Part shown: positions 1 to 35,427 of the stretch, piece after piece
Layout of the letters: every line of letters begins with the position of its first letter
How positions within the stretch are numbered: position 1 is the first letter of the stretch
Source of the DNA: a virus
Strand: one strand, 5' to 3'
IMG/VR virus record: IMGVR_UViG_3300046169_000012
Location: 1 to 35,427 of that record
DNA length: 35,427 nt
Translations under genes and position numbers: made by a program
Notes under the pieces: generated by a model
Told to the model about the DNA's origin: nothing
Seen by the model: only the letters and a program-made list of their open reading frames with translations
Database searches by the model: none

Positions 1-196
1 GACTTATGTTGGTCCCTTTAGGCCTTTCATAACGTGTGCACGTGCGAGTAACATAAGACGACAAAAGCAGTCAACAAATAATTAATGTAAATATTCACAC
101 AAAATAAATGTTGCACTCAGGTTTCATTGTGGCATTATGAACTCAAGCCAAGGCAATCAAGCCAAGGCAAACAAAAGCCCAAGGAGGGCAAGCAAC
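1..196. promoter_or_regulatory. Early-side half of the control region
   Basis: No gene is supported before the start at 197. The stretch is AT-rich from about 60 to 110. Bases 91-99 (ATATTCACA) are one mismatch from a DnaA box. A degenerate minus-strand promoter-like element lies at 46-74 (TTGACT, 17 bases, TTACTC) and resembles the late promoter at 34958-34986. A weak plus-strand candidate (TTGCAC at 111, CATTAT at 133) is the only nearby option for the first gene. If the genome is circular, this is the other half of the region at 34930-35427. Confidence 0.45.
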
Positions 197-382
197 ATGG
201 AAAACATCACACGTTCAAAAATCCTAGGTCGTTCAGTCATCATCCGCAAGCGTAAGATCCTGAGCAAGCCCTTCAGCTATAACCAAGGCGAGTGCTACCA
301 CAATTTGACCGGTGGGCTTTGGTCGCTCTACATTGAGCATAAGAAAGGACGCCCAGTGAACGTATCCATCGACGACCGTTAA
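197..382 (+). CDS. Small basic early protein, hypothetical
   Basis: A 61-residue basic protein of unknown function, and the first gene of the early block. The open frame extends upstream to an ATG at 137, but the ATG at 197 is chosen because a strong Shine-Dalgarno (AAGGAGG, 181-187) lies nine bases before it. The sequence is rich in Arg and Lys near its N-terminus (about residues 6-20), followed by a Tyr/Gly-rich middle. No membrane segment or known motif is visible. Its position suggests an early host-interaction role, which is inference from location only. Confidence 0.65.
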   Translation: MENITRSKILGRSVIIRKRKILSKPFSYNQGECYHNLTGGLWSLYIEHKKGRPVNVSIDDR

Positions 383-453: not shown

Positions 454-642
454 ATGCGACACATTACACTGACAGGGTACTACGCTGGCGAAACCGTTTG
501 TGGTGCGCCTAAGGACATTGAGGGCGATACATACGCCCACGTTGGCGAGTGGTTAGACAATCCAAAGTGTCGCATTGACCTGTGCGCAGAATGTGCTAAG
601 GTTTGGGACGATATTTTAGCGGAGTCAGAAAACGATGATTAA
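454..642 (+). CDS. Small Cys-containing early protein, hypothetical
   Basis: A 62-residue acidic protein of unknown function. The start at 454 is chosen over an upstream in-frame one at 397 because the upstream stretch would cover the terminator-like hairpin, and a GAGGTG Shine-Dalgarno lies at 443-448. It has one Cys near residue 16 and a cluster of three in the C-terminal third (pattern C-x5-C-x2-C), which could bind a metal. The gene overlaps the next start by eight bases, indicating translational coupling. Confidence 0.65.
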   Translation: MRHITLTGYYAGETVCGAPKDIEGDTYAHVGEWLDNPKCRIDLCAECAKVWDDILAESENDD

Positions 643-1290
643 ACTTTCGAAGGCCTCAAAAATGCCGGGTCGCTCATGGTCACTGCAAGCGCTGGACACT
701 TGTCCCGGTTCAAAGAAACGTGACGGGTCATTAGTGGACGCTTGTTCGGGATGCTATGCCACACAAGGAAACTACCGATTCAAGAACGTCAAAGCCCCTA
801 GAGAGCACAATCGGGAAGATTGGAAGCGAGACCAGTGGGTCGACGACATGGTCTCAGAATTGGATAACGACCGCTATTTCCGATGGTTCGACAGTGGTGA
901 CGTTTACGACGTTAGGTTGGCCCGTAAGATCTTGGAAGTGATGAAGCGAACGCCATGGTGCAATCATTGGCTACCGACACGCATGCATAAGTTTTCAAAG
1001 TTTGGTTCAGTGTTGGCAGAAATGTCAGCATTGCCGAACGTAGTAGTTCGCCTATCGTCCGACAGCATTACAGGGGACACCGTAGAAGGCCCTCAAACGT
1101 CCACCATAGCGACGTTGGACAATGTGCCAGGGGATGCCCTAGTTTGTGAAGCTTATTCACGAGAGGGCAAATGCGGGCCTTGTCTTGTAGGGCATGCTGG
1201 TCTAAAGACGTAGCAGTAGTGTGTTACATTGGGCACGGTAAGAGCATGGAAAAGAAACAACGGGATATAATAGCGAGGGTGGCGGGATGA
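635..1290 (+). CDS. Gp88-family Cys-rich phage protein, frame broken near the C-terminus
   Basis: Resembles the phage Gp88 family of unknown function. It has an N-terminal Cys cluster (a CPGS motif, then C-x2-C-Y-A about 15 residues later) of the kind that can hold an iron-sulfur cluster. A WFDSGDV segment and a WLPTRMHKF segment follow. As written, the frame stops at 1213 after CGPC. A perfect 5-base tandem duplication (CTTGT at 1179-1183 and 1184-1188) shifts the frame. Removing one copy gives CGPCRACW and a frame that runs to a TGA at 1288-1290. That stop overlaps the next gene's ATG at 1287 in the ATGA style used by its neighbours, which supports the restored end. The Fe-S or radical-SAM-like role is inference; the family name rests on motif memory, not a search. 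Confidence 0.7.
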
Positions 1291-2978: not shown

Positions 2979-2999
2979 TGACCTACCGGAGGGTGACGA

Positions 3000-3146
3000 A
3001 TGAAACAACCAGAGAACGGCCACACGAAGCACTTTGGCAACGACGGACCCATAGGCAACGACGCTGAAATCATTGTGTACTATGAGAACGAGGGCCAGCA
3101 GAGCCAGTCCTACGTATACCCTTTTGGTACTGTAAGGACGAACTAG
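3000..3146 (+). CDS. Small early protein, hypothetical (48 aa)
   Basis: A 48-residue, polar, Gly/Asn/Gln-rich ORF with a Tyr-containing C-terminus. A GGAG at 2989-2992 can act as Shine-Dalgarno. The next gene starts two bases after its stop. No family recognised. Confidence 0.45.
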   Translation: MKQPENGHTKHFGNDGPIGNDAEIIVYYENEGQQSQSYVYPFGTVRTN

Positions 3147-3148
3147 GG

Positions 3149-3277
3149 ATGTACGAGAACTTCGAGGCGTCAGTACGAAGGACAGCCAAGGCGCTCGCAG
3201 AGTCCTACACGTACTGGCCCGACGGGTACGTCCATGTGCAGACAATCATTAATCAGGAGTACGTAAACATACTATGA
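3149..3277 (+). CDS. Small early protein, hypothetical (42 aa)
   Basis: A 42-residue ORF with an amphipathic N-terminal helix (SVRRTAKALAESY) and a Tyr/Trp-rich middle. It is packed between neighbours: two bases from the previous stop, and overlapping the next start at 3274 by four bases. Function unknown. Confidence 0.45.
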   Translation: MYENFEASVRRTAKALAESYTYWPDGYVHVQTIINQEYVNIL

Positions 3278-3426
3278 TGACGGAACAGCAGTTAGAGCAG
3301 TGGATACGGGACAACCCGTGGAAAGCCAATGTGATCTGTCCTGCTGGGGGTATAGGGTTTATGATGTTCATTATGTACACTTGTGTGCAGATCATAGATT
3401 CTTTTTTGACAGGTAAATTCATTTAG
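3274..3426 (+). CDS. Small single-span membrane protein
   Basis: A 50-residue ORF with a polar N-terminus (residues 1-19) and one hydrophobic segment (about residues 20-45, Met/Ile/Phe rich). Its end overlaps the strong promoter for the replication genes, so this gene closes the early cluster. It is the fourth small single-span peptide in the first 3.5 kb. Function unknown. Confidence 0.5.
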   Translation: MMTEQQLEQWIRDNPWKANVICPAGGIGFMMFIMYTCVQIIDSFLTGKFI

Positions 3427-3434
3427 TGTATACT
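3406..3434 (+). promoter_or_regulatory. Strong sigma70-type promoter for the replication genes
   Basis: TTGACA (3406-3411), a 17-base spacer and TATACT (3429-3434) make a nearly consensus host sigma70 promoter. It lies 53 bases before the ssDNA-binding protein gene and should drive the replication module. Its close match fits a phage that relies on host RNA polymerase. Confidence 0.8.
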
Positions 3435-3486
3435 ATTAGTATGATATGCAATAATGCAATCATGAAACGATGACGGAGATTATTCC

Positions 3487-3864
3487 ATGACAGCAACAAC
3501 AATCGAAGGCGTAGTTAACTTCAGCAACCTAACCCAACATGACGTATTCAATGGGCAGGACACTGGTCAGTACTCTTTGACCATTACGATGACTGAAGAT
3601 GACGCCTCAGCGTTGTCCGCAATGGGGGTCAAGATCAAAGACTACCAAGGCGCTAAACAACGTAAGTTTAAATCTAAGTACGACGTAAAAAGCTTTGACG
3701 AAGACGGTAACCCTTACGGTGGTGAGATTCCTTACAATTCTAAGGTACGTCTCAAGTACAAGCTTGGGCCAGCACATCCAGTACACGGTGTGTCAACCTA
3801 TCTCGAAGCAGTGAAAGTCCTTGAGGAAGCTGAGATGGCTGTGGGCGATGCCGCAGACTTCTAA
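3487..3864 (+). CDS. Single-stranded DNA-binding protein (T7 gp2.5-like)
   Basis: A 125-residue protein that should coat ssDNA at the fork and recruit replication partners. It begins with a beta-rich region and carries basic and aromatic residues in the middle (AKQRKFKSKY), as expected for an OB-fold ssDNA binder. The C-terminus is acidic and ends DAADF. In T7 gp2.5 an acidic tail with a terminal Phe docks on the polymerase. Length is about half of T7 gp2.5. It follows a strong promoter and overlaps the primase-helicase by 17 bases. The assignment rests on tail, context and composition. Confidence 0.7.
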   Translation: MTATTIEGVVNFSNLTQHDVFNGQDTGQYSLTITMTEDDASALSAMGVKIKDYQGAKQRKFKSKYDVKSFDEDGNPYGGEIPYNSKVRLKYKLGPAHPVHGVSTYLEAVKVLEEAEMAVGDAADF

Positions 3865-5467
3865 GTTTGTACGTCACGAGAGTTGTCCGGAGTGTGGTTC
3901 TTCGGACGCTCTCGCTATCTACGACAACGGGGGCCAACACTGCTTTGGCTCCGGTTGTGACTACCATGTATTTGGAGACGGTGAAACACCAATGACGACT
4001 CAAGAACTACCAAAGGCTAAACCCCTGAACATGGGCGGTGTAGTGGCGGCAATACCTCAGCGTAGACTCTCGCAGGAAACCTGTAGCCGCTTTGGTGTTA
4101 CCGTTGAGTACTCCAGCACAGGGGAGATTCAGAAGCACTACTACCCTTACTACAATGGCGAGTCAGGGGAAGTGTGTGCAGCTAAGGTGCGTGACGTAAA
4201 AACCAAAGGATTCCACGCAACCGGAGACATGTCCGGTGCTGGTTTCTTTGGACAGCAGCAGTGTAGCGGTAATAAGTACATCACAATCACCGAAGGAGAA
4301 CTCGACGCACTCAGTGTGTACGAGATGTTCAACAAACAGTACGACGTGGTTTCCCTACGGTCAGGTGCTAGTAATGCCGCCAAGGAAATCAAAGAACAAC
4401 TAGAGTGGCTTGAGTCGTACGAAAACATTGTTATTTGTTTCGACAATGACAAAGCAGGAGATGCGGCTCTGGAGCAAGTTAAGGACCTCTTTAGTCCTAA
4501 CAAGCTAAGGATCTGTAAGCTTCCTGTGAAGGACGCCAGTGACATGCTCATGGCTAACAGGGTTAAGGACTTTACGCAAGCATGGTGGAATGCGAAAGTT
4601 TACCGACCTGACGGCATTGTAGCAGGTACTGAAACATGGGACACTCTGGTAGAGAAAAGACAGGTGAAGTCCATCCCGTATCCTTGGGAAGGTCTAAATC
4701 ACATCACAAGGGGACATAGACCTTATGAGTTGGTCACGATCACAAGCGGCAGTGGTATGGGAAAGTCCCAATTTATCAGAGAAATTGAGTACGATCTACT
4801 ACGCCGATGCGAAGGCAATATTGGAGTCTTGGCGCTTGAGGAAGATCTGGCCCGAACAAGCCTTGGTATCATGTCGGTGGCGGCAAACAGGCCCCTACAC
4901 TTGGAAGAGGACACGCCTGTGGACCAACTTCGACCTTTTTGGGAGGCCACACTGGGCACAGGACGTTACTACTTATTCGACCATTGGGGGTCTACTTCAG
5001 CAGATAACTTGCTCGCCCGTGTTCGCTACATGGCAAAAGCGCTTGACTGCAGGTACGTCGTACTGGACCACCTGTCCATCGTCGTGTCTTCCCAAGAGTC
5101 CGGAGACGAGCGTAAGGCCATTGACGAGATCATGACCAAGTTACGTACGCTTGTGGCAGAGACAGGCATTGGTCTGTTCCTCGTGTCACACCTTCGTCGA
5201 TCCCAAGGTAAGGCACACGAGGACGGTGCTCAGATATCATTGGGTGAACTACGGGGTAGTCAGGCGATTGCACAACTGTCCGACATAGTAATAGGCATGG
5301 AGCGTGACCAGCAGAACGCTAACGAAGACATCAGGAACACGACTACTGTTCGAGTCCTGAAGAATCGTTACACTGGTGAAACTGGACCAGCGTGTTACTT
5401 ACAGTACGACAGGACAACCGGAAGAATGACAGAAGTAGCTAACCCTGAAGTAGGAGCAGACTTTTGA
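3848..5467 (+). CDS. DNA primase-helicase (T7 gp4-like)
   Basis: A 539-residue bifunctional replication protein. A zinc-binding domain has Cys at residues 13, 16, 32 and 37. A TOPRIM primase core follows (TEGELDALS, then CFDNDKAGD with the acidic metal ligands). The C-terminal RecA/DnaB-type helicase has a Walker A GSGMGKS at residues 301-307, a Walker B-like VVLDHLS, a VSHLRR segment, and KNRYTGETG near the end as the likely arginine-finger region. The protein ends VGADF, echoing the SSB tail and the T7 gp4 C-terminal Phe that contacts the polymerase. The start at 3848 overlaps the SSB end. Its stop overlaps the polymerase start by four bases. Confidence 0.93.
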   Translation: MPQTSKFVRHESCPECGSSDALAIYDNGGQHCFGSGCDYHVFGDGETPMTTQELPKAKPLNMGGVVAAIPQRRLSQETCSRFGVTVEYSSTGEIQKHYYPYYNGESGEVCAAKVRDVKTKGFHATGDMSGAGFFGQQQCSGNKYITITEGELDALSVYEMFNKQYDVVSLRSGASNAAKEIKEQLEWLESYENIVICFDNDKAGDAALEQVKDLFSPNKLRICKLPVKDASDMLMANRVKDFTQAWWNAKVYRPDGIVAGTETWDTLVEKRQVKSIPYPWEGLNHITRGHRPYELVTITSGSGMGKSQFIREIEYDLLRRCEGNIGVLALEEDLARTSLGIMSVAANRPLHLEEDTPVDQLRPFWEATLGTGRYYLFDHWGSTSADNLLARVRYMAKALDCRYVVLDHLSIVVSSQESGDERKAIDEIMTKLRTLVAETGIGLFLVSHLRRSQGKAHEDGAQISLGELRGSQAIAQLSDIVIGMERDQQNANEDIRNTTTVRVLKNRYTGETGPACYLQYDRTTGRMTEVANPEVGADF

Positions 5468-7098
5468 TCTACCTTGATCTTGAGGCCAACGGTTTAACTC
5501 CCGACACCATTTGGTGTGTTGTAACACGGGAGAACGGTGTTTCACAGGTACATACCAACCGTAGTACCCTCTGTGAGGCCCTGGCTGGCTCTGTGAGCGT
5601 TTGTGGACACAACCTGATAGGTTATGACCTCCCAGTGCTAAAGCGTCTCTGGGGGCTTTCTGTGGCTCCTGAGAGGGTAGTGGACACACTGGTGTTGTCA
5701 CGTTTGTTTGACCCAAGCAGACAGGGTGGACACTCGTTGAGAGCTTGGGGTGAAACCTTGGGCTTCCCAAAGGGTGACCATGACGACTGGTCGTGTTTGT
5801 CTCCCGCTATGATTGACTACTGCATACAGGACGTAGCAGTCACAGAGGCAGTACATCAGCAGCTTGTGAAGGACATGCAAGATTTTGACCCTAAGTGTAT
5901 CGAATTGGAACACAAGGTTCAGTTTGCAGTCCAACAACAAGAGCGTAACGGTTGGGTCTTAGATCAGCAATTGGCTAATGAGTTATGTGCAACATTCAAG
6001 GAAGGCATGAATGCAATTGAAGCCGAACTACAAGAGATGTTCCCGCCCATTGTCGAAGAAAGGATTTCTGAAAAGACAGGGAAACGACTTAAGGACAAAG
6101 TTACAGTTTTCAATGTTGGGTCCAGACAACAAGTTGCAGAACGACTTGCAACTAAGGGTGCGAAGTGGAACGAGAAGACGCCAAGCGGAAAGCCCGTTGT
6201 CGATGAAAAGACGCTTAAGGAGAACAACCACGTCCCTGAGGCAGGAAAAGTTTTGGAGTACCTTACTCTTCAAAAGCGATATGCGCAAGTACATTCTTGG
6301 TTAGAAGCCGTTAAGGAGGACGGTAGAGTACACGGTCGTGTCATTAGTAACGGAGCAGTAACAGGTCGAATGACACATCAGAGTCCCAACATGGCCCAAG
6401 TCCCAGCAAGCCACAGTCCTTATGGACATGAGTGTCGCTCCTGCTGGACTGTACCTGAAGGGAAGAAGCTAGTAGGTTTCGACGCTAGTGGCCTTGAGCT
6501 ACGAATGTTGGCACATTACATGGACGATAAGGAGTTTACCAATGTCCTCCTCACCGAAGACATTCATACACGAAACCAAATGGCTGCAGGGCTTGAAACA
6601 AGACCTCAAGCAAAGACTTTCATATACGCTTTCCTCTACGGGGCTGGAGATGCCAAAATTGGAAGTGTCGTTGGAGGAAGCGCAAGAGATGGCGCAGATC
6701 TTAAACAGCGATTTCTCCGAAATACACCTGCTCTTGAAAGTCTACGAGAACGGGTTACTAGAGCATCTCAGCGAGGCTATCTCAGAGGACTTGATGGTAG
6801 AAGGCTTAGAGTTAGATCTGAACATGCTGCATTGAATACTCTGCTCCAAGCAGCAGGTGCAATCGTAATGAAAAAAGCACTGGTGATCTTGGACGACTAC
6901 GCACAGCAGTGGAACATTGACTATAAATTCATAGGTAACATTCATGACGAAGTACAATCGGAGGTGGCTGCAGACCAAGCAGAGAAGTTTGGCTGGCTCG
7001 CAGTGGAGTGCCTCAAGGCGGCAGGCGTGGAGTATAACCTTAGATGCCCCCTTGACGGAGAATACAAAGTCGGTACAACATGGGCGGAGACACACTGA
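5464..7098 (+). CDS. DNA polymerase, family A (T7 gp5-like)
   Basis: A 544-residue replicative polymerase. The N-terminal 3'-5' exonuclease domain shows DLEANG (D5/E7), GHNLIGYDLP and YCIQDVAVT. The palm and fingers show motif A (FDASGLELRM, D340), motif B (R380, K384, Y388, Y392) and motif C (HDEVQ, D495). All catalytic residues are present. It is shorter than T7 gp5 (704 aa), and I see no obvious thioredoxin-binding insertion in the thumb, so processivity may come from elsewhere (inference). The residue matching E. coli Pol I position 762 is Tyr. It overlaps the helicase stop (ATGA) and its own stop overlaps the next start (TGATG). Confidence 0.95.
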   Translation: MIYLDLEANGLTPDTIWCVVTRENGVSQVHTNRSTLCEALAGSVSVCGHNLIGYDLPVLKRLWGLSVAPERVVDTLVLSRLFDPSRQGGHSLRAWGETLGFPKGDHDDWSCLSPAMIDYCIQDVAVTEAVHQQLVKDMQDFDPKCIELEHKVQFAVQQQERNGWVLDQQLANELCATFKEGMNAIEAELQEMFPPIVEERISEKTGKRLKDKVTVFNVGSRQQVAERLATKGAKWNEKTPSGKPVVDEKTLKENNHVPEAGKVLEYLTLQKRYAQVHSWLEAVKEDGRVHGRVISNGAVTGRMTHQSPNMAQVPASHSPYGHECRSCWTVPEGKKLVGFDASGLELRMLAHYMDDKEFTNVLLTEDIHTRNQMAAGLETRPQAKTFIYAFLYGAGDAKIGSVVGGSARDGADLKQRFLRNTPALESLRERVTRASQRGYLRGLDGRRLRVRSEHAALNTLLQAAGAIVMKKALVILDDYAQQWNIDYKFIGNIHDEVQSEVAADQAEKFGWLAVECLKAAGVEYNLRCPLDGEYKVGTTWAETH

Positions 7099-9010: not shown

Positions 9011-9292
9011 TGATGCGACTCCTGCAGAGTGGGACACGATTACTGCACTAAACAACCTGTCCGTAAGGAACCGAAGAAGGTAGACCCTGTGGAGCAACCT
9101 GACCACTACAACAAAGGATCAATCGAAGCTATCGAAGCAATCAAAGCGTCCATGCCTGAACATGAGTTCAACGGTTATCTCAAGGGTAACGCACTGAAGT
9201 ACCTCTGGCGCTATGACTACAAAGGTAAACCAGTCGAAGATCTACGGAAGTGTCGCTGGTACATCGAACGACTAATTAAGGAACTAAATTAA
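9000..9292 (+). CDS. DUF3310-family protein, probably frameshifted near its start
   Basis: The C-terminal 75 residues show the DUF3310 pattern: a DHYN motif, then EAIEAIKASM, GNALKYLWRY and KCRWYIERLI. The family is common beside phage nucleotide-metabolism genes, with unproven function. The intact frame can only start at a GTG (9029). An ATG at 9000 with a good Shine-Dalgarno (GGAGGAAG) gives MSIDDATPAEWD, a plausible family start, but in another frame. One missing base near 9045 would join the two. The true start is therefore uncertain: 9000 if the indel is an error, 9029 if not. The last base coincides with the RNR start. Confidence 0.65.
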
Positions 9293-11164
9293 TGGACGCA
9301 TATCAACAGTACATACACAAGTCACGCTACGCTCGTTACCTACCAGAGGAGCAGCGACGGGAGACTTGGGAAGAAACAATTGACCGCTACCTAAACTTCT
9401 GGATTGAGAAGGGTAAGCTAACACTAGAGCAGGCTAACGGTATCTTTGCAGACATTCATGACATGGGTGTTATGCCTCCATGCGAGCACTTGATGACTGC
9501 TGGAGAAGCACTAGACCGTGACAATGTAGCTGGGTTTAACTGCTCCTACATGCCTATCGACCACCCTAAAGCATTTGACGAGATGATGTACGTTCTCATG
9601 TGTGGCACTGGAGTGGGCTTTAGTGTAGAGCGTCAGTACGTAACAAAATTACCAGAAGTAGCAGAGGAATTCCATGATACCGATACCGTTATACATGTCG
9701 CCGATAGTAAAATTGGATGGGCTAAAGCTTACCGGGAACTTGTTAGCTTGTTGTATTCAGGCCAACTTCCGAAATGGGACGTGTCTGGAGTACGACTTGC
9801 AGGGGCAACCCTTAAGACCTTCGGAGGTAGAGCATCTGGTCCAGAACCTCTTGTCGATCTGTTCAACTTCACAGTCAGCGTCTTTCGGGAAGCTGCTGGA
9901 CGTAAACTTAGCTCCATTGAGTGCCACGATATCTGCTGTAAGATTGCACAGATCGTCGTTGTCGGAGGTGTACGCAGGTCCGCTCTCATCAGTCTGTCTA
10001 ACCTCACTGACGATAGACTCCGACGATGCAAGTCAGGCCAGTGGTGGCAGGATAACCCTCAGCGAGGACTAGCGAACAACAGCGCATGTTATACAGAGAA
10101 GCCAGACTTTGAGGCGTTTTTAAATGAGTGGAAAAGTTTATACGAGTCCCGCTCCGGAGAACGAGGAATGTTCTCTAGAGTCGCAAGTCAAAAGCAAGCT
10201 GCAAAGAACGAGCGACGAGATGCTACCTATGATTTTGGAACTAATCCATGCTCAGAGATCATCCTCAGGCCCTACCAGTTCTGCAATCTATCGGAAGTTG
10301 TTGTCAGGGCAGGAGATACGTTGTCAGACCTTAAACGAAAAGTACGTGTTGCGGCTATCCTTGGGTCTCTTCAGGCTACGCTAACCGACTTCCGCTACCT
10401 TACGTAAGGTATGGCAGAAGAATACAGAAGAAGAAGCACTGCTAGGTGTATCACTAACAGGCATCATGGATCACGCCGTGTTGTCAGGGAGGGAAGATCG
10501 TGAGAAACTTAAAGATTGGCTCGTGGCTCTCAAAGAGGAGGCGATTAGTACTAATAAGGAATGGGCTACTAAGCTTGGTATTAATATTAGCACTGCCATC
10601 ACTGCTGTTAAACCTTCCGGTACTGTTAGTCAGTTGGTTGATTCTGCTTCTGGCATCCACCCTAGATACTCAGATCAATACATTAGACGAGTTAGAGCAG
10701 ATGCAAGAGACCCGCTCTGTCAAGTCCTTGAGGCAGCAGGAGTGCCCGTAGAGGACGACGTAATGTCACCCACTACCAAGGTATTCTCCTTCCCCATAAA
10801 GTCGCCTGAGGGGGCTGTGGTGGCCTCTGAGATGGGTGCTATGGAGCAACTTGAGCTTTGGGAGATCTATCAGGACTTCTGGTGTGAACATAAGCCGTCA
10901 ATGACGTGTTACTACCGTGACGACGAGTTCCTTGAGGTGGGTCAGTGGTTGTACAACAAGTTCGACAAGATCAGTGGCGTAAGCTTCCTACCCTACTCAG
11001 AGCATACGTACCAACAGGCTCCTTATGAACCTATTGATCTGGAGACGTTTGAGAAGTTGAAGGAGGAGTTTCCTGAGACCATCGACTGGAACATCTCTGA
11101 GAACTCTGACATGACTGAAGGGTCGCAACAGTTGGCTTGTACAGGTAATAACTGCGAGTTGTAA
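9292..11164 (+). CDS. nrdJ: Class II (adenosylcobalamin-dependent) ribonucleotide reductase, frame broken at 10402
   Basis: Makes deoxynucleotides for phage DNA using coenzyme B12, without oxygen. The sequence resembles monomeric RTPR-type class II enzymes. C84 (in FNCSY) and C331 (FCNLSEV) form the redox pair; C320 in NPCSEI is the thiyl site with a nearby Glu. The C-terminus carries a CTGNNC redox tail. As written the frame ends at 10407. The match continues one frame over (KVWQKNTEEEALLGVSLTGIMDHAVL, in two parts) to 11164. One extra base at about 10402 inside the palindrome CTTACGTAAG accounts for it. Restored length is about 623 residues. All three catalytic Cys lie before the break; the reducing tail lies after it. 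Confidence 0.88.
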
Positions 11165-17832: not shown

Positions 17833-20800
17833 GCTAACATTCCTCGTCTGCGGGTCCGCATTAATAATTGTTGTGCTTCTTCGTTGTAGTCTACTGCTGG
17901 TGTTTTAATAGCAAGCTGGGGTGCTTCTCTAGGACGGTACGTAATTCCTTTCATAAACTCTTCATAAGGTGCTCTAGTAGGAGCAGCAGGAGCAGCGAAC
18001 ATACCTCCAGCAGCTAAGGCAGTTAGTACGTTTCCGCCCATGATCTGTTGTTGTAACGCTTGTTGTTCTTCACCGTACATTCTTTCAAAGTCTGCCTGAC
18101 GTGTTAGTATTTCTTCACGCTCTTCTTCTGCCAAACCTAGTCTTGTAGTAACACTGTCTCTAAACTGACCAAACGCTTCAGCCTGACTAATTTGTCCTTG
18201 CTGTAGACCAACTAGGTTTACATTAAATTCTTCTTGTAGATCAGAAAGGGACAAACCTAATTCAGCAAACCGTTGTTGGCTGTCCGCACTTAGTTCCTCT
18301 ACCTGACCACCAACACTGATTATTTCCTGAGCTAGTGCTAAACGATCTTGCTGTGCTTGACCAAACTGTTCTGTTGTGTACTGTTGGTAAGCGTCAAACG
18401 CTTCTTGTTGTGTTATCTGGCCTTGGCGCAGTGCCTCAATGTTTACGTTAGTGCCAGCAAACAGTTCCTCTATACTCTGGTCCTGTTGTTGGAACCGTAG
18501 CATCATATCGTCACTAAGCTGAGTTACGTCACCACCGACAGCTATAATTGCCTGTTGTAGCTCTTGACGCTCTTCTGATGCAGTAGCAAGCTGTTGACCT
18601 AATGATGTACGCAGTTGCTCTAGTGCTTCTTGTTGCGTTATTTGTCCTGCCTGTAGTGCGTTAATGTCAACACCTACGCCAGCAAACAGATCAGTTATGG
18701 TTCCGCCAAAGTCTGCAAACTGTTGTTGCATATCGGCACTTAGTTGTGTAATGTCACCGTTAGCCGCAATAATAGCTTGCTGTAGTTGTTGACGTTCAGT
18801 TGCTGCAAGTTCAAATTGTTGGGACGTAAACGACTCAAACTCGTCAAAGCGTCCTGCTACGTCTTCTTGCAAAGAGATAAGGTCAGTGCCTAGCATCTCT
18901 AGCTCGCCACTAAGTCCACCTTCTACTGCTGCAAGAGACTGGATCAGAGAAGCCTCAAGTCCTGTGATACTGGCTAGAAACGCTGCTTCTTGGTCGCTGA
19001 ATTGTGTAGCAATACCGTTAACAGCATCGTCAAAGCGTTCGTTAAGATCAGCAAACTGCCCACTAACGTCTGTCTGAAAAGCAGCAAAAGTATCTGCAAA
19101 GTCGTCAAAGCGCCCTGAGAAGTCTGCTCTAACACTGTCTAGGTCTTCACCCAAACCTAACAGTTCGTCTCTTAAAGCACCTTCTGTAGACGCTAACTGT
19201 TGGAATACAGAGGTTTCTAGCCCAAGTAAATCAGCAGCAAATGCGGCTTCCTGCTCTGTAAACTGCGTAGCAACGCCGTTGAGTACGTTGTCAATCTTGT
19301 CATTAAGATCTTCAAAGCCAGCCTGAACGTCAGCAGAAGTAGCAAAACCAAAGCTGTCTACAATGCCACGTACGTCACCCTCTGACAGTCCTTCAGGAAA
19401 CTCTATGTTAGCTATAGCTTCGTTAACTACACCACTTACGTCGTCCAAAGATATACCCGCTGGTATACCGTCAATAGCCTCTTGGATTAACTGTCGTACT
19501 TCTTCTGTAGTTGCGCCTTCGGGTATGACAATGTTAGAGATAGCGTTGTTTACAATGTCTTCTACTTGTTCAGGCGTAGCGTACCCAGCTTCTGCTAGTG
19601 CTAACGTAAGGCGTTCATCTGTGACAAACCCTGAGTCAGCAAGAGCATTTGTAATGTCTTCTGGTGTAGCGTAGCCTGCGTCTGCTAAGGTACTCTAGCA
19701 CTTGCTCTGGTGTAGCAAACCCAGCGTTCTGTATTGCTTCATTAACTTGTTCTGTTGTAGCAACACCAGCCAGTGCTTCTGTCAACTGGTCCTGTGTTAA
19801 ATAACCAGCATTAGCTAGTTCTTGTTGTATACGGTCAAAGTTTTGTTGTGACAGTGTAACGCCGTTAGTTTCAAAGTACTCAGCAATGTCTTCCATTGTA
19901 GGCATTGCATTGTAGTCAGGTAGTGTCTCAACAAAGTTTTGAATGATCTGATTAATCTGTTCTTCCTGACCAGTAAACTGTTCGTCCAGTTGTTCTAAAA
20001 AGTCAGCGAACAAACCTTCAACAACAGAAGTAACATCAGGGTCTGGATCAGGGTCTGGATCAGGGTCTGGATCAGGTTGTGGATCTGGATCAGGTTGTGG
20101 ATCAGGCTGTGGATCTGGATCAGGTTGTGGATCAGGCTGTGGATCAGGCTGTGGATCTGGCTGTGGATCTGGATCAGGTTGTTCAATAGGAGCTTGTTTG
20201 ACTGGGGTAGGTTCAAAAAACTCACCAATGAAGAAGTCGTACTGAGACTGCTCATCCATGAGATTAAAGTCTCCGGGAATTATGCCTCCTTCTTCTTCAA
20301 ACCTTTGTGCTAATGCCTTAATAGAATACTGATAAATATCTTCTTCTAGTGCATGAAACGACAGATCATCGACCAACGACTGATACGTACCAGAGTTAAT
20401 TGTCTCTAGTCCAGTGTTTTCTAACTGCTCTCTGGTGTACTCACCGTTAAGCTCAAAGTCAATGTCTTCGCTTTCTGCTAACTGAAAGTACTCATCTGTT
20501 TCACTGTTAACAAAGTAGTTGTTACCCCTGTTAGTAAACATAAGGGTAGGGTCTTGTTCTGGTGTTTCTTGAGTAAGTGGTAGTTGTTCTTCTGTTGCTG
20601 TGCCTGAGTTTACTAGTACGTTACGTGCCGCACCATAAACAGCACTTCCTACGTTTTCTGCAAGAATACCACCCAGCCAATCAGGTATACCGGAGGGGAA
20701 ACTTCCAGCTAAAACACCACCAATAATTGTACCTGCCTGAGTAGGGTCTGCTACTGCTCCTTGGATCTGTCCAATAATTTTATCAATTTGTTCTTTTACT

Positions 20801-21570
20801 TCACCTACTACTTCTCCACCAGCACCAACAATAATAGTACCAATGTCGTTTAGTATTTCGCCAATGTCGCCTTCTTCAATAGCGCCAGTAATTTCTGTAT
20901 CTGCAATGATAGTACTAATTTTATCAATAGCTTCTCCTACTGTAGGTAAAAATATAACACCAGCAGTAGGCATCCAGTTAGGAAGTGATATTCCGGGAAT
21001 GTATCCTTTTATAGCGTCTAAGATTCCGCCTTCACCAAAAACTTGACCACCAGCATCTACGACTTGTTTAATGTCTACAGTAACGCCAGCACCACCACGA
21101 ATTACTAACTCACCTCCGCCAGTAGTAGTAATAGGAGTAGTAGGAGTAGCTCCAGCAAATTGCATTGCACCACTTTCTAAAATGGTAGTAACCAAAGGAC
21201 CCGGATCTTCCATGTCCGCAAGCGCTTCTGGATTGTCAACCATAGTGTCAACAATGTTTTGAGCTTCAGTACGAGCGTTTTCTAAAGCTCCAATTATTTG
21301 ACCTAATACATTTGCATTAACACCTGAAGCATACTCAATATCAAACGGAGCTTCAGGATTCATTCTTACAGTGTTAGCATCCAGAATTTCCTGCATAGTA
21401 GGATCAGCCCAGATAGCTCCTAACTCAGACTGACCAATACCTCCAAGCAAGGCAAGAAGACGGCCCATAAGACCTTCTCTATCTTCAATCTCTTCATACG
21501 GAGGAATGTCTGGAATGCCTGTATTTTCGTCTGTAAGCATGCCTTTTGTAGGGGGTGGTAGTTTAGCCAT
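17829..21570 (-). CDS. Giant repeat-rich virion protein, frame broken at about 19686
   Basis: Restored length about 1246 residues; one extra base after TACCTT (19686) splits it as written into 644- and 539-residue frames. The N-terminal third has Gly/Ile-rich, partly hydrophobic segments. A Pro-Asp/Pro-Gln low-complexity linker follows (DNA 20036-20183). Next come short A-G-Y/F-A-T-P-E-Q repeats that cross the break and so prove continuity. Then there are two 87-residue repeats (18807-19328) and three 75-residue repeats (18108-18782), Gln/Glu-rich and coiled-coil-like. Lying between the holin and the tail adaptor, it may be an extended fibre, a tape-like or an ejected structural protein. I do not recognise the family. 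Confidence 0.65.
18108..18782 (-). repeat. Three tandem 75-residue protein repeats
   Basis: Three consecutive units of exactly 75 codons, each beginning QAII/QEII plus A/S-x-G-G/N-x and containing F-A-G/E-x3-N/D-I/L-x-A/G-L-x-x-G-Q-I-T/S-Q. Sequence has diverged, but length is strictly kept. This suggests each unit is a structural rod segment in which register matters. Confidence 0.7.
18807..19328 (-). repeat. Two tandem 87-residue protein repeats
   Basis: Two units of 87 codons. Each has FEDLND or FADLNE, NG-V/I-ATQF, QEAAF, a Leu-rich helix (GLETSVFQQLASTEG or its counterpart) and a GRFD-D/E-F ending. They lie just upstream of the 75-residue repeats in the same protein, separated by eight residues. 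Confidence 0.6.
20036..20183 (-). repeat. Low-complexity Pro-Asp-Pro-Gln coding repeat
   Basis: Near-perfect 6- and 12-base repeats (plus-strand GGATCA/GGATCT with GGTCT or GGCTGT units) encode a run of Pro-Asp and Pro-Gln pairs of about 50 residues. It should form a stiff, extended, negatively charged linker. It is prone to slippage and likely to vary in length between isolates. Confidence 0.8.
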
Positions 21571-29582: not shown

Positions 29583-29724
29583 TTTTGTTACCCCAGTTCT
29601 TAGCGCCGACTTTGCGGCATTTAGCTACAGCACCAGAGGCGTATGCAGAAGGCCAGACCTTGTATCTAGACTTGACCTTTTTTGCACAAGCGTCGTTAGC
29701 TTTCTTAGTTTTAGCTTTAGGCAT
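29563..29724 (-). CDS. Small very basic protein, hypothetical (53 aa)
   Basis: A 53-residue protein with the pattern ACAKKVKSRYKVWPSAYASGA followed by KCRKVGAKNWG (written here as two pieces), which I recall from other phage genomes. It has two Cys and a net strong positive charge. It starts two bases after the previous tiny gene and overlaps the next. Function unknown. Confidence 0.65.
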   Translation of the reverse strand: MPKAKTKKANDACAKKVKSRYKVWPSAYASGAVAKCRKVGAKNWGNKSGRKKK

Positions 29725-29726
29725 CT

Positions 29727-29786
29727 TTAGTACCCCTTGGGTTTGCTCTTGCCTTTCTTCTTTCGCTTACCTGAACAGTTTGGCAT
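29727..29786 (-). CDS. Tiny basic peptide (19 aa)
   Basis: A 19-residue peptide, MPNCSGKRKKKGKSKPKGY, half of it Lys or Arg. Despite its size it has one of the best Shine-Dalgarno sequences in the block (AAGGAGG, seven bases before the ATG), and the genes on both sides leave exactly this space. Very short ORFs are easily spurious, but the SD and packing argue that it is translated. Confidence 0.5.
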   Translation of the reverse strand: MPNCSGKRKKKGKSKPKGY

Positions 29787-29796
29787 GGTAGCCTCC

Positions 29797-29943
29797 TTAC
29801 TTTTTGTGAACTTTCTGGACTTCAAAGTTTGCAGACTTAGACGCACCCTTGTGTGGCTTGTAGCCGTCTGCAGGGTCTTTCATTAGTTTATAACCTTTGC
29901 CACTCTTCATCCAGTGATGGCCTTTAGGTGCATTGACTTTCAT
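29797..29943 (-). CDS. Small basic protein, hypothetical (48 aa)
   Basis: A 48-residue, Lys/Gly/His-rich protein (MKVNAPKGHHWMKSGKGYKL at the start). It overlaps the stop of the 113-residue basic gene by four bases (ATGA). Function unknown; part of the run of tiny basic genes between portal and scaffold. Confidence 0.6.
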   Translation of the reverse strand: MKVNAPKGHHWMKSGKGYKLMKDPADGYKPHKGASKSANFEVQKVHKK

Positions 29944-32608: not shown

Positions 32609-33859
32609 TTAGTATCCTGCTACCACGTCTAAAATTTCGTGGTCCTCAATTTCGTAGTCGTAGTCGTACGCTACATTTGCCAGTTGGTCAATATACGCCA
32701 AAGCGTCTATCAAGTCGTCATGCGTCAAAGGATCTGGGAATTGAAACAACTGGTCTAAAAACCTAGAATTCCACTCACCTTTGTTTAATGTAATGTAGCC
32801 GTTTTCGAAACGACCTTGTAGTGCCCACATTACTCTGTCGGTCTTCTTTTTGTTACCGTGGGTAAGCTCTTCTACTCTAAAGAACATACCGTATCTTTTC
32901 TGCATGTCAACAAGCGGAGACATTACAGCTTGTTTAGCAATACCTCTTTCGATTCCGACCGACACGGGACGGTAATCTCTAACGGCCTGAAATATCTTAG
33001 CTGCTGTTTCGTCAAGACTCCATCTACCGTATATGATATTGTCAACATACCAACCATGCTCATTGACCTTAACCACTGCGATGGCTGTGTCGTCAAGCTT
33101 GGAGTTCTTAGTCTTTTTCTTGTTGACTTCTTCAAAACCTGCCAAGTCAACTGCAATGTAGTAATCTCCTACTTCCGGCTCATCTTCACTAAACCTAACC
33201 CAATCCTCTTTAAACATTTCTGAACCACGGGCTTCAAACGACGCCATAAACTCCTGACGAAACGCATAAGAAGACATAGAGCGTTTAGCAATGTCGATTT
33301 CACTAGGGTCCAACAACGGGTTATCATAGCTCGTAAAGTGCCAAGCTTTGTACGTAGGGTCATCATCTAAGTCCGCATATTTGTATAGTTCGTAAAAGTG
33401 GTTCCTTCCCATTGGCGTACCAATGAACATTGCACAGCCCTTTTGGTCCGCCAAAGCAGGTCTCAAGATCTGCTCAAACACCTCTGGTTTCATGTCAGCG
33501 TATTCGTCCATGACTAGAAACTTAAGGCTGACACCTCGCATTGTCTCTGGTCTGTCGGCACCTTTGAGGCTGATGGTAGCGCCGTTGACAAGCTTAATTT
33601 GCAAATTATTAATATGGCTACCAGAGATAACAGGGTGTCCCAGTTCCAAAAGGGTTTGCCACATGATGTCTCTGGCTTGTCCCTGAGTAGGTGCGACGTA
33701 AAATACATGGCCTCTGTCCGCCTGAAGTGCGTTAACTATTAACATCCAAGCTGCTAACCTAGACTTACCCGTACGTCGCCCAGCAGCTACTATTTTAAAT
33801 CTTGTGTCGTCTGCCCAGACTTCTTGTTGCCAAGGCAGTAGCTCTATATTAAGATCCAT
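32609..33859 (-). CDS. Terminase large subunit (packaging ATPase/nuclease)
   Basis: A 416-residue DNA packaging motor. The ATPase domain has Walker A AAGRRTGKS (residues 25-33), Walker B FLVMDEY (D118, E119) and the coupling motif GTP (147-149). The C-terminal RNase H-like nuclease has the acidic residue in YYIAVDLAG (D238), GIERG, and HDDLIDALAY near residue 385. All expected motifs are present and the gene is unbroken. It overlaps the upstream small gene by eleven bases and stops one base before the portal start. Confidence 0.95.
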   Translation of the reverse strand: MDLNIELLPWQQEVWADDTRFKIVAAGRRTGKSRLAAWMLIVNALQADRGHVFYVAPTQGQARDIMWQTLLELGHPVISGSHINNLQIKLVNGATISLKGADRPETMRGVSLKFLVMDEYADMKPEVFEQILRPALADQKGCAMFIGTPMGRNHFYELYKYADLDDDPTYKAWHFTSYDNPLLDPSEIDIAKRSMSSYAFRQEFMASFEARGSEMFKEDWVRFSEDEPEVGDYYIAVDLAGFEEVNKKKTKNSKLDDTAIAVVKVNEHGWYVDNIIYGRWSLDETAAKIFQAVRDYRPVSVGIERGIAKQAVMSPLVDMQKRYGMFFRVEELTHGNKKKTDRVMWALQGRFENGYITLNKGEWNSRFLDQLFQFPDPLTHDDLIDALAYIDQLANVAYDYDYEIEDHEILDVVAGY

Positions 33860-34202
33860 TGAAGTTATTAAACACCGGTGATGCTTCTATTAAATCAAAC
33901 GTAACTACTACTTCTACGTTTCCTGCACTACCACTAGATGCCTTGATAATGTCTCCCGGTTGTAGAACAAACACGGCATTACCGTCAATTAGCAGGTTTT
34001 CCTTAGAAGATATGTTAGTACCGTTGTAGATATACACGTCTGTAGTAGGGCTAGGCTTGTCTACAAACAGCGTAATGCTGTTGGTTGAGTTATGTAGATT
34101 AGCAATAAACGCCATATTCCAATGAGCCACGTAACCAGCAGGGATTTCTACGATTGTCTGCGTACTAGTATCTGTTAGGTTCTTGTTCTTTGTGTATAAC
34201 AT
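33849..34202 (-). CDS. Small beta-rich virion-like protein, hypothetical
   Basis: A 117-residue protein from the ATG at 34202, which overlaps the peptidase stop (TAATG); an in-frame GTG at 34214 would add four residues. The sequence alternates hydrophobic and polar residues with Thr/Asn/Ser-rich turns (IPAGYVAHWNMAFIANLH, then ITLFVDK, VYIYNGT, VEVVVTFDLIE), typical of a jelly-roll-like beta sandwich. Such small proteins decorate heads or tails in many phages, but this family is not recognised. Confidence 0.6.
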   Translation of the reverse strand: MLYTKNKNLTDTSTQTIVEIPAGYVAHWNMAFIANLHNSTNSITLFVDKPSPTTDVYIYNGTNISSKENLLIDGNAVFVLQPGDIIKASSGSAGNVEVVVTFDLIEASPVFNNFNGS

Positions 34203-34552
34203 TAGTAAGTCCACATAACAGGAGTAGTACCACGGGTGTCAACGTGGATAAAGTCAGAAGCAACACCGATACCTGTGAATCCTAACTTAAGAGCACTATT
34301 GACAAGCTTAAGGCGATCAGCAGCGTTTGTTATTTTTATGTCCGCTGCGATCCCTTGGGCATGAGTTCCGGGAACATCTTTTCTTGACTCTATTGGATGT
34401 AGTGTCGGGTGTCTATATCCACTAGTAATCACAAAAGGAAATCCACAGTACGCCCTTAACTCGTCTAACTTCTCTAGGAACTCTTGTTCCATATTGTTAG
34501 TACCAGTGACCTGACAATCGAATTCTTCTCTAGTAAAATGCTTAAGAGTCAT
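34202..34552 (-). CDS. M15-family peptidase, endolysin
   Basis: A 116-residue Zn-dependent peptidase that should cut peptidoglycan cross-links or stems at lysis. The M15 pattern is complete: SGYRHP near residue 44, then H64-x6-D71 (HAQGIAADI) and H103-V-D105 (FIHVDTRG), giving Zn ligands H64, D71 and H103. It has no signal peptide, so release needs the holin, which is encoded about 12 kb away in the same operon. It overlaps small terminase by eleven bases. Confidence 0.88.
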   Translation of the reverse strand: MTLKHFTREEFDCQVTGTNNMEQEFLEKLDELRAYCGFPFVITSGYRHPTLHPIESRKDVPGTHAQGIAADIKITNAADRLKLVNSALKLGFTGIGVASDFIHVDTRGTTPVMWTY

Positions 34553-34929
34553 CTTCTACTACTTCTCCTTCGATTATATCAGGAGTAGACACTTCAGCAG
34601 TGCCTACGCCACTAATGTTGATCTGTATAGCGTTTCTACCGTTGTCTTTGACTACGTCCTTCTCAAAGGCACCCACTGGCAGTATACGGTCCATCACAAG
34701 TTTCCAAGCAGCAGCCTGATTCTTATGGTCATGGTCCAAAGCAGCATCAAAAATAGTCTCTAGGACCTTACGTGACTTTGGACTAGCCAACATACGAGCT
34801 TTGTACTCGTTAATTATCGCTGCGTCACCCTTTGGTCGGCCTACTACACCCTTGTTACCGGGCTTTACAGCAGGCTACTTCAGACTTCCGGGGTCTGCCA
34901 CGACCTCTTTTTTTAACTTCTGTGGTCAT
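34542..34929 (-). CDS. Terminase small subunit, frame broken at about 34872
   Basis: Recognises phage DNA for packaging. From ATG 34929 the first frame reads a basic, AT-hook-like start (KKRGRGRPRKSEVA) and stops at 34857-34855. One base later in register the sequence continues as KPGNKGVVGRPKGDAAII and on to 34542; an intact ORF in this frame begins only at 34793. One extra base at about 34872 joins the parts into about 128 residues. The GRPKG motif, helical middle and place right before the endolysin and large terminase support the call. First gene after the late promoter. Confidence 0.7.
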
Positions 34930-34957
34930 GAAAAAAATTATCCCTTAATATGACTAT

Positions 34958-34986
34958 AGTATAACATAAGTCTTCACAAAAGTCAA
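34958..34986 (-). promoter_or_regulatory. Strong sigma70-type late promoter
   Basis: On the minus strand: TTGACT (34981-34986), a 17-base spacer, TATACT (34958-34963). It lies 28 bases before the small terminase ATG and should start the whole late block. Its spacer (ending GACTTATGT) is nearly repeated across the joined window ends. Confidence 0.82.
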
Positions 34987-35023
34987 GCTATTTTAGAGGT
35001 AATTCCAGGGACTATTGAAACTT

Positions 35024-35098
35024 GAGTAAAAACAACAGGTTATACTGCTTTTATTTTTACTTAATTTTTCTAATTTTGGCTTATTTTGTGCTTAAGGT
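35024..35098. other. AT-rich segment beside the DnaA-box array
   Basis: A run of about 75 bases rich in A and T, with repeated TTTT and TTAATTT-like tracts. It is placed between the late promoter and the DnaA-box cluster, as the unwinding element is placed in bacterial origins. No gene is seen here. The role as a duplex unwinding element is inference. Confidence 0.45.
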
Positions 35099-35143
35099 GC
35101 TGCTACTATAGCCACAACATAAGTTCCCCCTCCCCCGCCCAAG

Positions 35144-35315
35144 TTATCCACAGGTTATTCACAAGTTATCCACAGGTTATTCACAGGTTGTGGACATCTT
35201 GGGGATAACCTGTGTTTATCCTGTGGATAACTCTAGGGTTGTGGATAAAGTTATGCACAGGTTATCCACAGGCTATGCACAGGGTCAACCCAAGTTATCC
35301 ACAGGTTTATCCACA
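35144..35315. other. DnaA-box array, oriC-like
   Basis: Ten exact TTATNCACA sites in 172 bases. Plus strand: 35144, 35155, 35166, 35177, 35251, 35262, 35295, 35307. Minus strand: 35222-35230 and 35240-35248. Seven of them are the highest-affinity form TTATCCACA. One-mismatch sites lie at 35200-35208 (minus) and 35273-35281. The first four, and then 35251/35262/35273/35295, step by 11 or 22 bases, so boxes face the same side of the helix. No comparable cluster was seen elsewhere in the window. Host DnaA binding is the direct prediction. Use as replication origin, DnaA sink or promoter control cannot be told apart from sequence alone. Confidence 0.85.
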
Positions 35316-35427
35316 TGGTCCTGAGAGGCCCTGAGAAGCCGCTCAAGGGGTTTTAACCTTGGGGTATACCATAAGACCAACTAAAGTTTATTCGAGTTTT
35401 TACACTTTGGGGGTTGACAAGTGTGAG
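35316..35427. promoter_or_regulatory. Window-end region with a -35 box
   Basis: No gene seen. It contains CAAGG...CCTTG (35344-35361, a short hairpin), a GGTATACC palindrome around 35363-35370, and TTGACA at 35414-35419 followed by only eight bases before the window ends. Joined to base 1, the next 17 bases end in GACTTATGT as in the late promoter, but the -10 position would read TGGTCC, which is poor. Confidence 0.4.

Follow-up and report, generated by a model that had tools for sequence, protein, structure and literature searches.

In oriC of the E. coli and B. subtilis type, DnaA boxes with 2-bp gaps are clustered beside an AT-rich, duplex-labile stretch, and their helical spacing matters (PMC4285127). 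Transcription is also known to be regulated by DnaA, phage lambda being one case (PMC8203912, PMC3985674); there the host protein stimulates transcription in pR/pO-ori lambda, a phage early and replication control region, and activation of ori lambda by DnaA is the subject of works cited in the latter source. The lytic replicon of phage P1 (oriL/repL) has DnaA sites beside an AT-rich region, only two in number, whose mutation is immaterial to RepL replication (PMC9948254). The E. coli datA locus is a non-coding DnaA-box cluster as well, with fewer consensus boxes than the array described here and with a required IHF site (PMC5835720). T7-like phages of the Berlinvirus/Eapunavirus type (P483, nasanit, A7, NJ2 and phiEap-1) have 3-5 exact boxes in or beside a non-coding early leader.

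An array sharing features with each of these systems lies in the window, the stretch of 35,427 nucleotides of viral DNA that was analysed. Unlike oriC, it is composed mostly of consensus high-affinity boxes and is dispensable in close relatives. The Fis consensus and GATC of the E. coli type are absent from the control region, and the IHF consensus has no match at 34793-35600, the consensus being that of E. coli, from which that of the host could differ. Lambda has few boxes and its own O and P initiators, whereas the window has ten phased, mostly consensus boxes with a fixed spacing on the promoter side. P483 and the phages grouped with it differ in encoding an RNA polymerase (shown for P483, annotated for phiEap-1), in their unrelated backbone and in their fewer boxes. 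DnaA sites in a phage control region are already known; the present arrangement is undescribed in the open literature searched, which contained no description of DnaA arrays in this phage family.

The box array and its genomic setting

A direct scan bears out the count given in the first-pass annotation, ten exact TTATNCACA boxes in 172 bp, of which seven are TTATCCACA (Table 1). The whole window contains one further exact copy, at 34191 on the minus strand, while shuffled windows contain 1.6 +/- 1.2 and none of 100 shuffles reached at least 11; with ten boxes in 172 bp against 1.6 expected across the window, the cluster is indeed non-random. Neighbouring exact boxes are separated, start to start, by 11 bp five times and otherwise by 45, 18, 33 and 12 bp. 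The initial description of spacings of 11 or 22 bp stands for the former, and for the latter only if the one-mismatch box at 35273 is counted, which, as does the one at 35200, fills a gap in the spacing pattern.

Table 1. Positions in the window of the elements of the control region and of the genes discussed. A slash within a sequence marks the window ends.
Feature	Position	Strand	Remark
DnaA-box array	35144..35315	.	ten exact TTATNCACA and two one-mismatch boxes
Exact TTATNCACA boxes	35144, 35155, 35166, 35177, 35251, 35262, 35295, 35307	+	
Exact TTATNCACA boxes	35222, 35240	-	
One-mismatch boxes within array	35200(-), 35273(+)		
Promoter-proximal (last) box	35307..35315	+	84 bp from TTCGAGTTTTT, 107 bp from TTGACA
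Conserved early-side motif TTCGAGTTTTT	35391..35401	+	putative promoter or protein site; kept in relatives
TTGACA of conserved block GGTTGACAAGTGTG/(G)ACTTATGTTGG	35414..35419	+	block spans window ends
Least stable 150 bp of genome	34928..35077	.	possible DNA-unwinding region, from duplex stability
T-tracts every ~10 bp (TTTTATTTTTACTTAATTTTTCTAATTTTGGCTTATTTTGTG)	35049..35090	+	from sequence
C-rich tract, between AT-rich stretch and array	35126..35140	+	kept also without array
Sigma70-like leftward promoter of terS/structural operon	34958..34986	-	predicted; TTGACT-17-TATACT, extended -10; conserved in relatives
terS candidate, first leftward gene	34542..34793	-	position near terL; no Pfam match
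Terminase large subunit	32609..33859	-	
First early gene of array cassette, family 12	137..382	+	
Early gene, gene product 88-like (PF17338)	635..1213	+	same array cassette
gp2.5-like ssDNA-binding protein	3487..3864	+	
T7-type primase-helicase	3821..5467	+	
Family A DNA polymerase	5464..7098	+	

The ends of the window join: relatives such as L002 read through GGTTGACAAGTGTGAG/GACTTATGTTGG without a break, which places the array within the intergenic region between the divergent terS and early operon. This region extends for 770 bp across the window ends, from the leftward terS (34793) to the rightward early operon (from 137). It is the largest non-coding region but not the only large one, as had been stated, because stretches of 508 bp (2979-3486) and 357 bp (29583-29939) also exist. 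The block GGTTGACAAGTGTG/(G)ACTTATGTTGG is present in array-minus relatives too. No canonical -10 element is located 16-18 bp from its TTGACA, and the early strand, joined ends included, yielded no convincing sigma70 promoter. The sigma54 motif TGGCAYR-N4-TTGCW, present in relatives, has zero occurrences in the window, also at the offset that it takes in those relatives. A further repeat, AACATAAG, occurs four times in the control region, at 34963, 35116 and 50 (+) and at 3 (-), with two more copies in the genome, and is possibly an operator common to the terS promoter and the early leader.

The window derives from a marine, podovirus-like phage without its own RNA polymerase. The absence of a visible RNA polymerase, pointed out from the start, was confirmed: the T7-type enzyme (PF00940) is missing from 15 records, the window and 14 relatives, in a search that detected the polymerase of P483 as positive control. 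Rightward genes include a gp2.5-like SSB, a T7-type primase-helicase, a family A polymerase, endonucleases and ribonucleotide reductase; the leftward genes are structural, among them terminase and portal. Neither a phage-encoded DnaA (DnaA C-terminal domain) nor a recognised phage initiator was found. Among the best matches listed, named phages reach up to ~42% identity in the terminase and less than 50% in the primase. Assignment of the host through genomes was abandoned, as the TerL matches fall in marine metagenome bins of many phyla and are probably misbinned.

Some other genes deserve mention. Ribonucleotide reductase is split over two ORFs, 9292-10407 and 10466-11164 (profile positions 32-441 and 478-695), through a frameshift, an insertion or a sequencing error. 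The structural-region protein encoded at 19636-21570 has a long PDPQPDP repeat tract, whose codon repeats yield several one-mismatch TGATCCACA boxes. An early protein of ~67 aa in the early region of L332 matches sigma70 region 4 (PF04545, E 8e-10), with counterparts in L074, L072, L052, L327, L080, L029, L039, L063 and L061, and may be a phage protein that regulates host RNA polymerase.

Conservation of the boxes and exchange with sigma54-type motifs

Except for the named phages, the relatives compared are metagenome contigs, in which chimeric assembly could mimic module swaps, yet many independent contigs agree. About half of the IMG/VR primase relatives that reach the region have 4-10 exact boxes at the same place, and the others few or none. 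In terminase relatives the density of boxes is 0.69/kb upstream of terL versus 0.012/kb downstream, a count that includes loci fetched by the box pattern; without these loci, three or more boxes within 300 bp occur in 31 of 121 relatives and five or more in 20, compared with 0 of 605 shuffles. The distance between neighbours in the arrays of relatives is mostly 11 bp (49 cases), then 12, 33 and 22 bp. A conserved array at the same place in related phages, the check proposed at the outset, was found in part: it recurs upstream of terS/terL across the marine family, although many relatives are without it.

Among 25 pairs of relatives at least 80% identical, differences affect 5.2% of the fixed box bases, 22.8% of the bases at free position 5, 16.9% of the spacers and 12.6% of the flanks, so that within a box the fixed bases vary ~4 times less than the free base at position 5. 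Position 5 is free, position 3 accepts T and G above all, and the tolerated changes fit the DnaA consensus TTWTNCACA, which is assumed to hold for the true host. Judged from these sequence comparisons, the array is a conserved functional element with DnaA-type sites under selection. The tandem, iteron-like arrangement and the many early genes without known function could also indicate iterons for a phage-encoded protein that merely resemble DnaA boxes. This explanation is very improbable, given that the free fifth position and the A/T at position 3 match DnaA's own consensus, that arrays of this 9-mer occur also in unrelated phages that infect other hosts, and that none of the early gene families both occurs in every array phage and is restricted to such phages.

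Mapped onto the terminase tree, presence of the array takes 18 changes, of which at least 13 fall on well-supported branches. L312, the nearest terminase neighbour (99.8% identical), has no box and carries three sigma54-type motifs; the near-complete array-minus genomes G002, G003, G010 and G011 have sigma54-type motifs and no box cluster anywhere, G003 having two boxes 57 bp apart in the slot. Among the array-minus relatives without a box cluster are some with a near-identical terminase and a primase 82-91% identical to that of the window, and the slot of such relatives is occupied by tandem TTGGCAYG-N4-TTGCW motifs (110 distinct sites), which match the known -24/-12 consensus of sigma54 promoters and are putative binding sites. 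The TTGGCA-N6-TTGC spacing is constant in 126 of 127 cases, and the motifs are on the early-ward strand 126 times versus 6 on the other. The tandem motifs in the control regions of L070, L033, L042, L065, L035 and L312 are as surprising as the DnaA array. A strict exclusion of array and sigma54 motifs throughout the family was rejected (Fisher p 0.09, independent pairs also checked), being nearly true in the window's clade only. Capture of the array from a plasmid or a known phage was also discarded, the search yielding a single weak plasmid match, 60 bp long, besides repeats of the box.

The array co-occurs with certain first early genes, those of families 12, 7, 10, 14 and 15; family 12 is found in 13 of 23 array-plus phages versus 2 of 49 others. 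The SSB, the primase and later early genes are common to array-plus and array-minus types. This early-gene linkage, together with the shared replication genes, characterizes the slot as an exchangeable control cassette, and on these comparisons the array travels with the first early genes and not with the replisome genes.

The placement of the boxes relative to promoter-like motifs is also maintained. The window's clade, in which the sigma54 motif is missing, includes 12 phages with identical distances: exactly 84 bp separate the last box from TTCGAGTTTTT, and exactly 107 bp separate it from TTGACA. Two of these phages are only 55-61% identical over the 107 bp, and array length ranges from 129 to 185 bp in the same 12; the exception is L054, where the last box is 117 bp from TTGACA. 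In members with both elements, the start of a plus-strand box precedes the TGG of the sigma54 motif by 20 bp. IMG/VR was scanned for boxes 0-30 bp upstream of a sigma54 motif, 68 of 120 contigs among the matches listed belonging to the family. Among these matches, 43 of 95 family placements had the plus-strand box 10 bp upstream of TTGGCA (about -46 to -38), with 16 distinct spacer sequences, many of which look homologous, so that independent origins are fewer than the counts. The gap of 10 stayed constant while the spacer sequences changed; unrelated contigs among the matches listed in the same scan showed no gap-10 peak. For minus-strand boxes upstream of sigma54 motifs, the gap peaks at 3 and 14, 11 apart.

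Possible roles in transcriptional control, replication and titration

The sequences themselves show the boxes, the selection acting on them, the constancy of their placement and the swapping of modules in company with the first early genes; we infer that host DnaA binds and that the early promoter is its target, for activation or repression. We propose a model, to which we give an even chance, in which the array is a host-DnaA docking element controlling the early operon. In the model, host DnaA assembles along the 11-bp-phased boxes and, from the promoter-proximal box, would act on RNA polymerase at the rightward early promoter, by contact or exclusion. Early expression would thereby depend on a host cell-cycle protein, and the phage probably senses or exploits this protein to launch its own programme. 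The slot would accept interchangeable host-factor modules, either the DnaA array or tandem promoters of the sigma54 type or a combination of the two. The same DnaA complex may secondarily help to open the neighbouring AT-rich stretch for replication.

Early control is favoured because of the exchange with promoter motifs, the early-gene linkage and the fixed spacing, and regulation of the flanking promoters by DnaA has the strongest comparative support among the readings offered in the first-pass annotation. Two points count against it. The window has neither a sigma54 motif nor a canonical sigma70 promoter on the early strand, so that no early promoter was found for it or for its clade; and ten or more boxes are, to our knowledge, far above the number used by known DnaA-regulated promoters.

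The usual activators of sigma54 promoters are enhancer-binding proteins, whereas in the relatives it is DnaA boxes that are found at about -46 to -38. Host DnaA, itself of the AAA+ class, might directly control sigma54 RNA polymerase from about -42 in the composite early promoters of the family, perhaps replacing the usual AAA+ enhancer-binding protein, and the array of the window would be a form that lost or replaced its sigma54 partner. We consider this unlikely; the open literature searched contained nothing on DnaA-controlled sigma54 transcription.

An origin dependent on host DnaA, alone or besides control, would use the array differently: DnaA would melt the AT-rich stretch 34928-35090 and the self-loading T7-type helicase-primase would enter the bubble. 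The genome's least stable 150 bp adjoin the array, so that a non-coding DnaA-box cluster and an adjacent AT-rich region of low stability, both oriC-type features, are present. The boxes are phased and of high affinity, the phage has no T7-type RNA polymerase and no recognised initiator, the distance from terS to the first box is nearly constant (350 or 371 bp, a 21-bp shift), and in all seven genomes examined the cumulative GC-skew minimum falls beside the slot's terS end. However, the AT-rich stretch is there equally with or without the array, ranking first or second in instability in 7 of 7 genomes, and it also houses the conserved leftward promoter. The skew switch tracks gene orientation, with its maximum at the orientation switch at ~11.3 kb and not at the antipode of the array; skew, whether of GC or at third codon positions, reflects gene direction and individual genes and was discarded as independent support for an origin. 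Above all, relatives with near-complete genomes keep the replication genes while lacking any box cluster, an outcome named in advance as refuting, and L312, with a terminase 99.8% identical, carries sigma54 motifs instead; an obligate host-DnaA origin of this replication machinery is therefore not supported, nor does an origin predict the fixed spacing to sigma54 motifs. We regard an origin here as possible but less probable than early control. The two roles are compatible, as lambda ori illustrates, where the effect of DnaA passes through transcription (PMC3985674).

Multiplied phage DNA could also serve as a sink that titrates DnaA or, as datA does, promotes its ATP hydrolysis, halting host initiation. 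Seven perfect consensus boxes per genome would suit this purpose, as would the 3-5 exact boxes clustered in the early leaders or early regions of the unrelated P483, nasanit, A7, NJ2, phiEap-1 and Vibrio BD1/BD5. A single genome, however, supplies only around twelve sites when infection begins, the IHF consensus needed by datA in E. coli is missing from the region, and a sink requires neither a fixed distance to promoter-like motifs nor exchange with sigma54 modules. Such a role is quite improbable.

Clusters of 4-5 exact boxes were observed in L204 (P483, 2431-2533), L378 (phiEap-1, 2533-2636), L376/L377 (Vibrio BD1/BD5) and L379 (Lactococcus AM4), most of them in non-coding early leaders or near early genes. 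IMG/VR phages with 5-7 DnaA boxes are L152 (787-850), L164 (6870-6943), L187 (1524-1674) and L193 (5791-5921); in L152, six boxes follow one another at intervals of exactly 11 bp, close to a repressor-like gene. G012 (contig L360, 35752 bp) has boxes at both ends, 43-74 and 35649-35680, apparently another array split by the contig ends. The arrays of the named phages make DnaA boxes in early regions a recurring theme among unrelated phages.

The exchange of array and sigma54 motifs in one slot, with a fixed spacing when both are combined, offers a direct experimental handle, and parts of the question can already be tested in culturable T7-like phages of E. coli, P483 and its relatives, whose arrays are similar but smaller. 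If either role is real, phage take-over would be tied to the host replication initiator, through a cell-cycle gate on early transcription or through an origin free of a phage initiator, and this would account for how T7-type replisomes function in common marine phages without an RNA polymerase.
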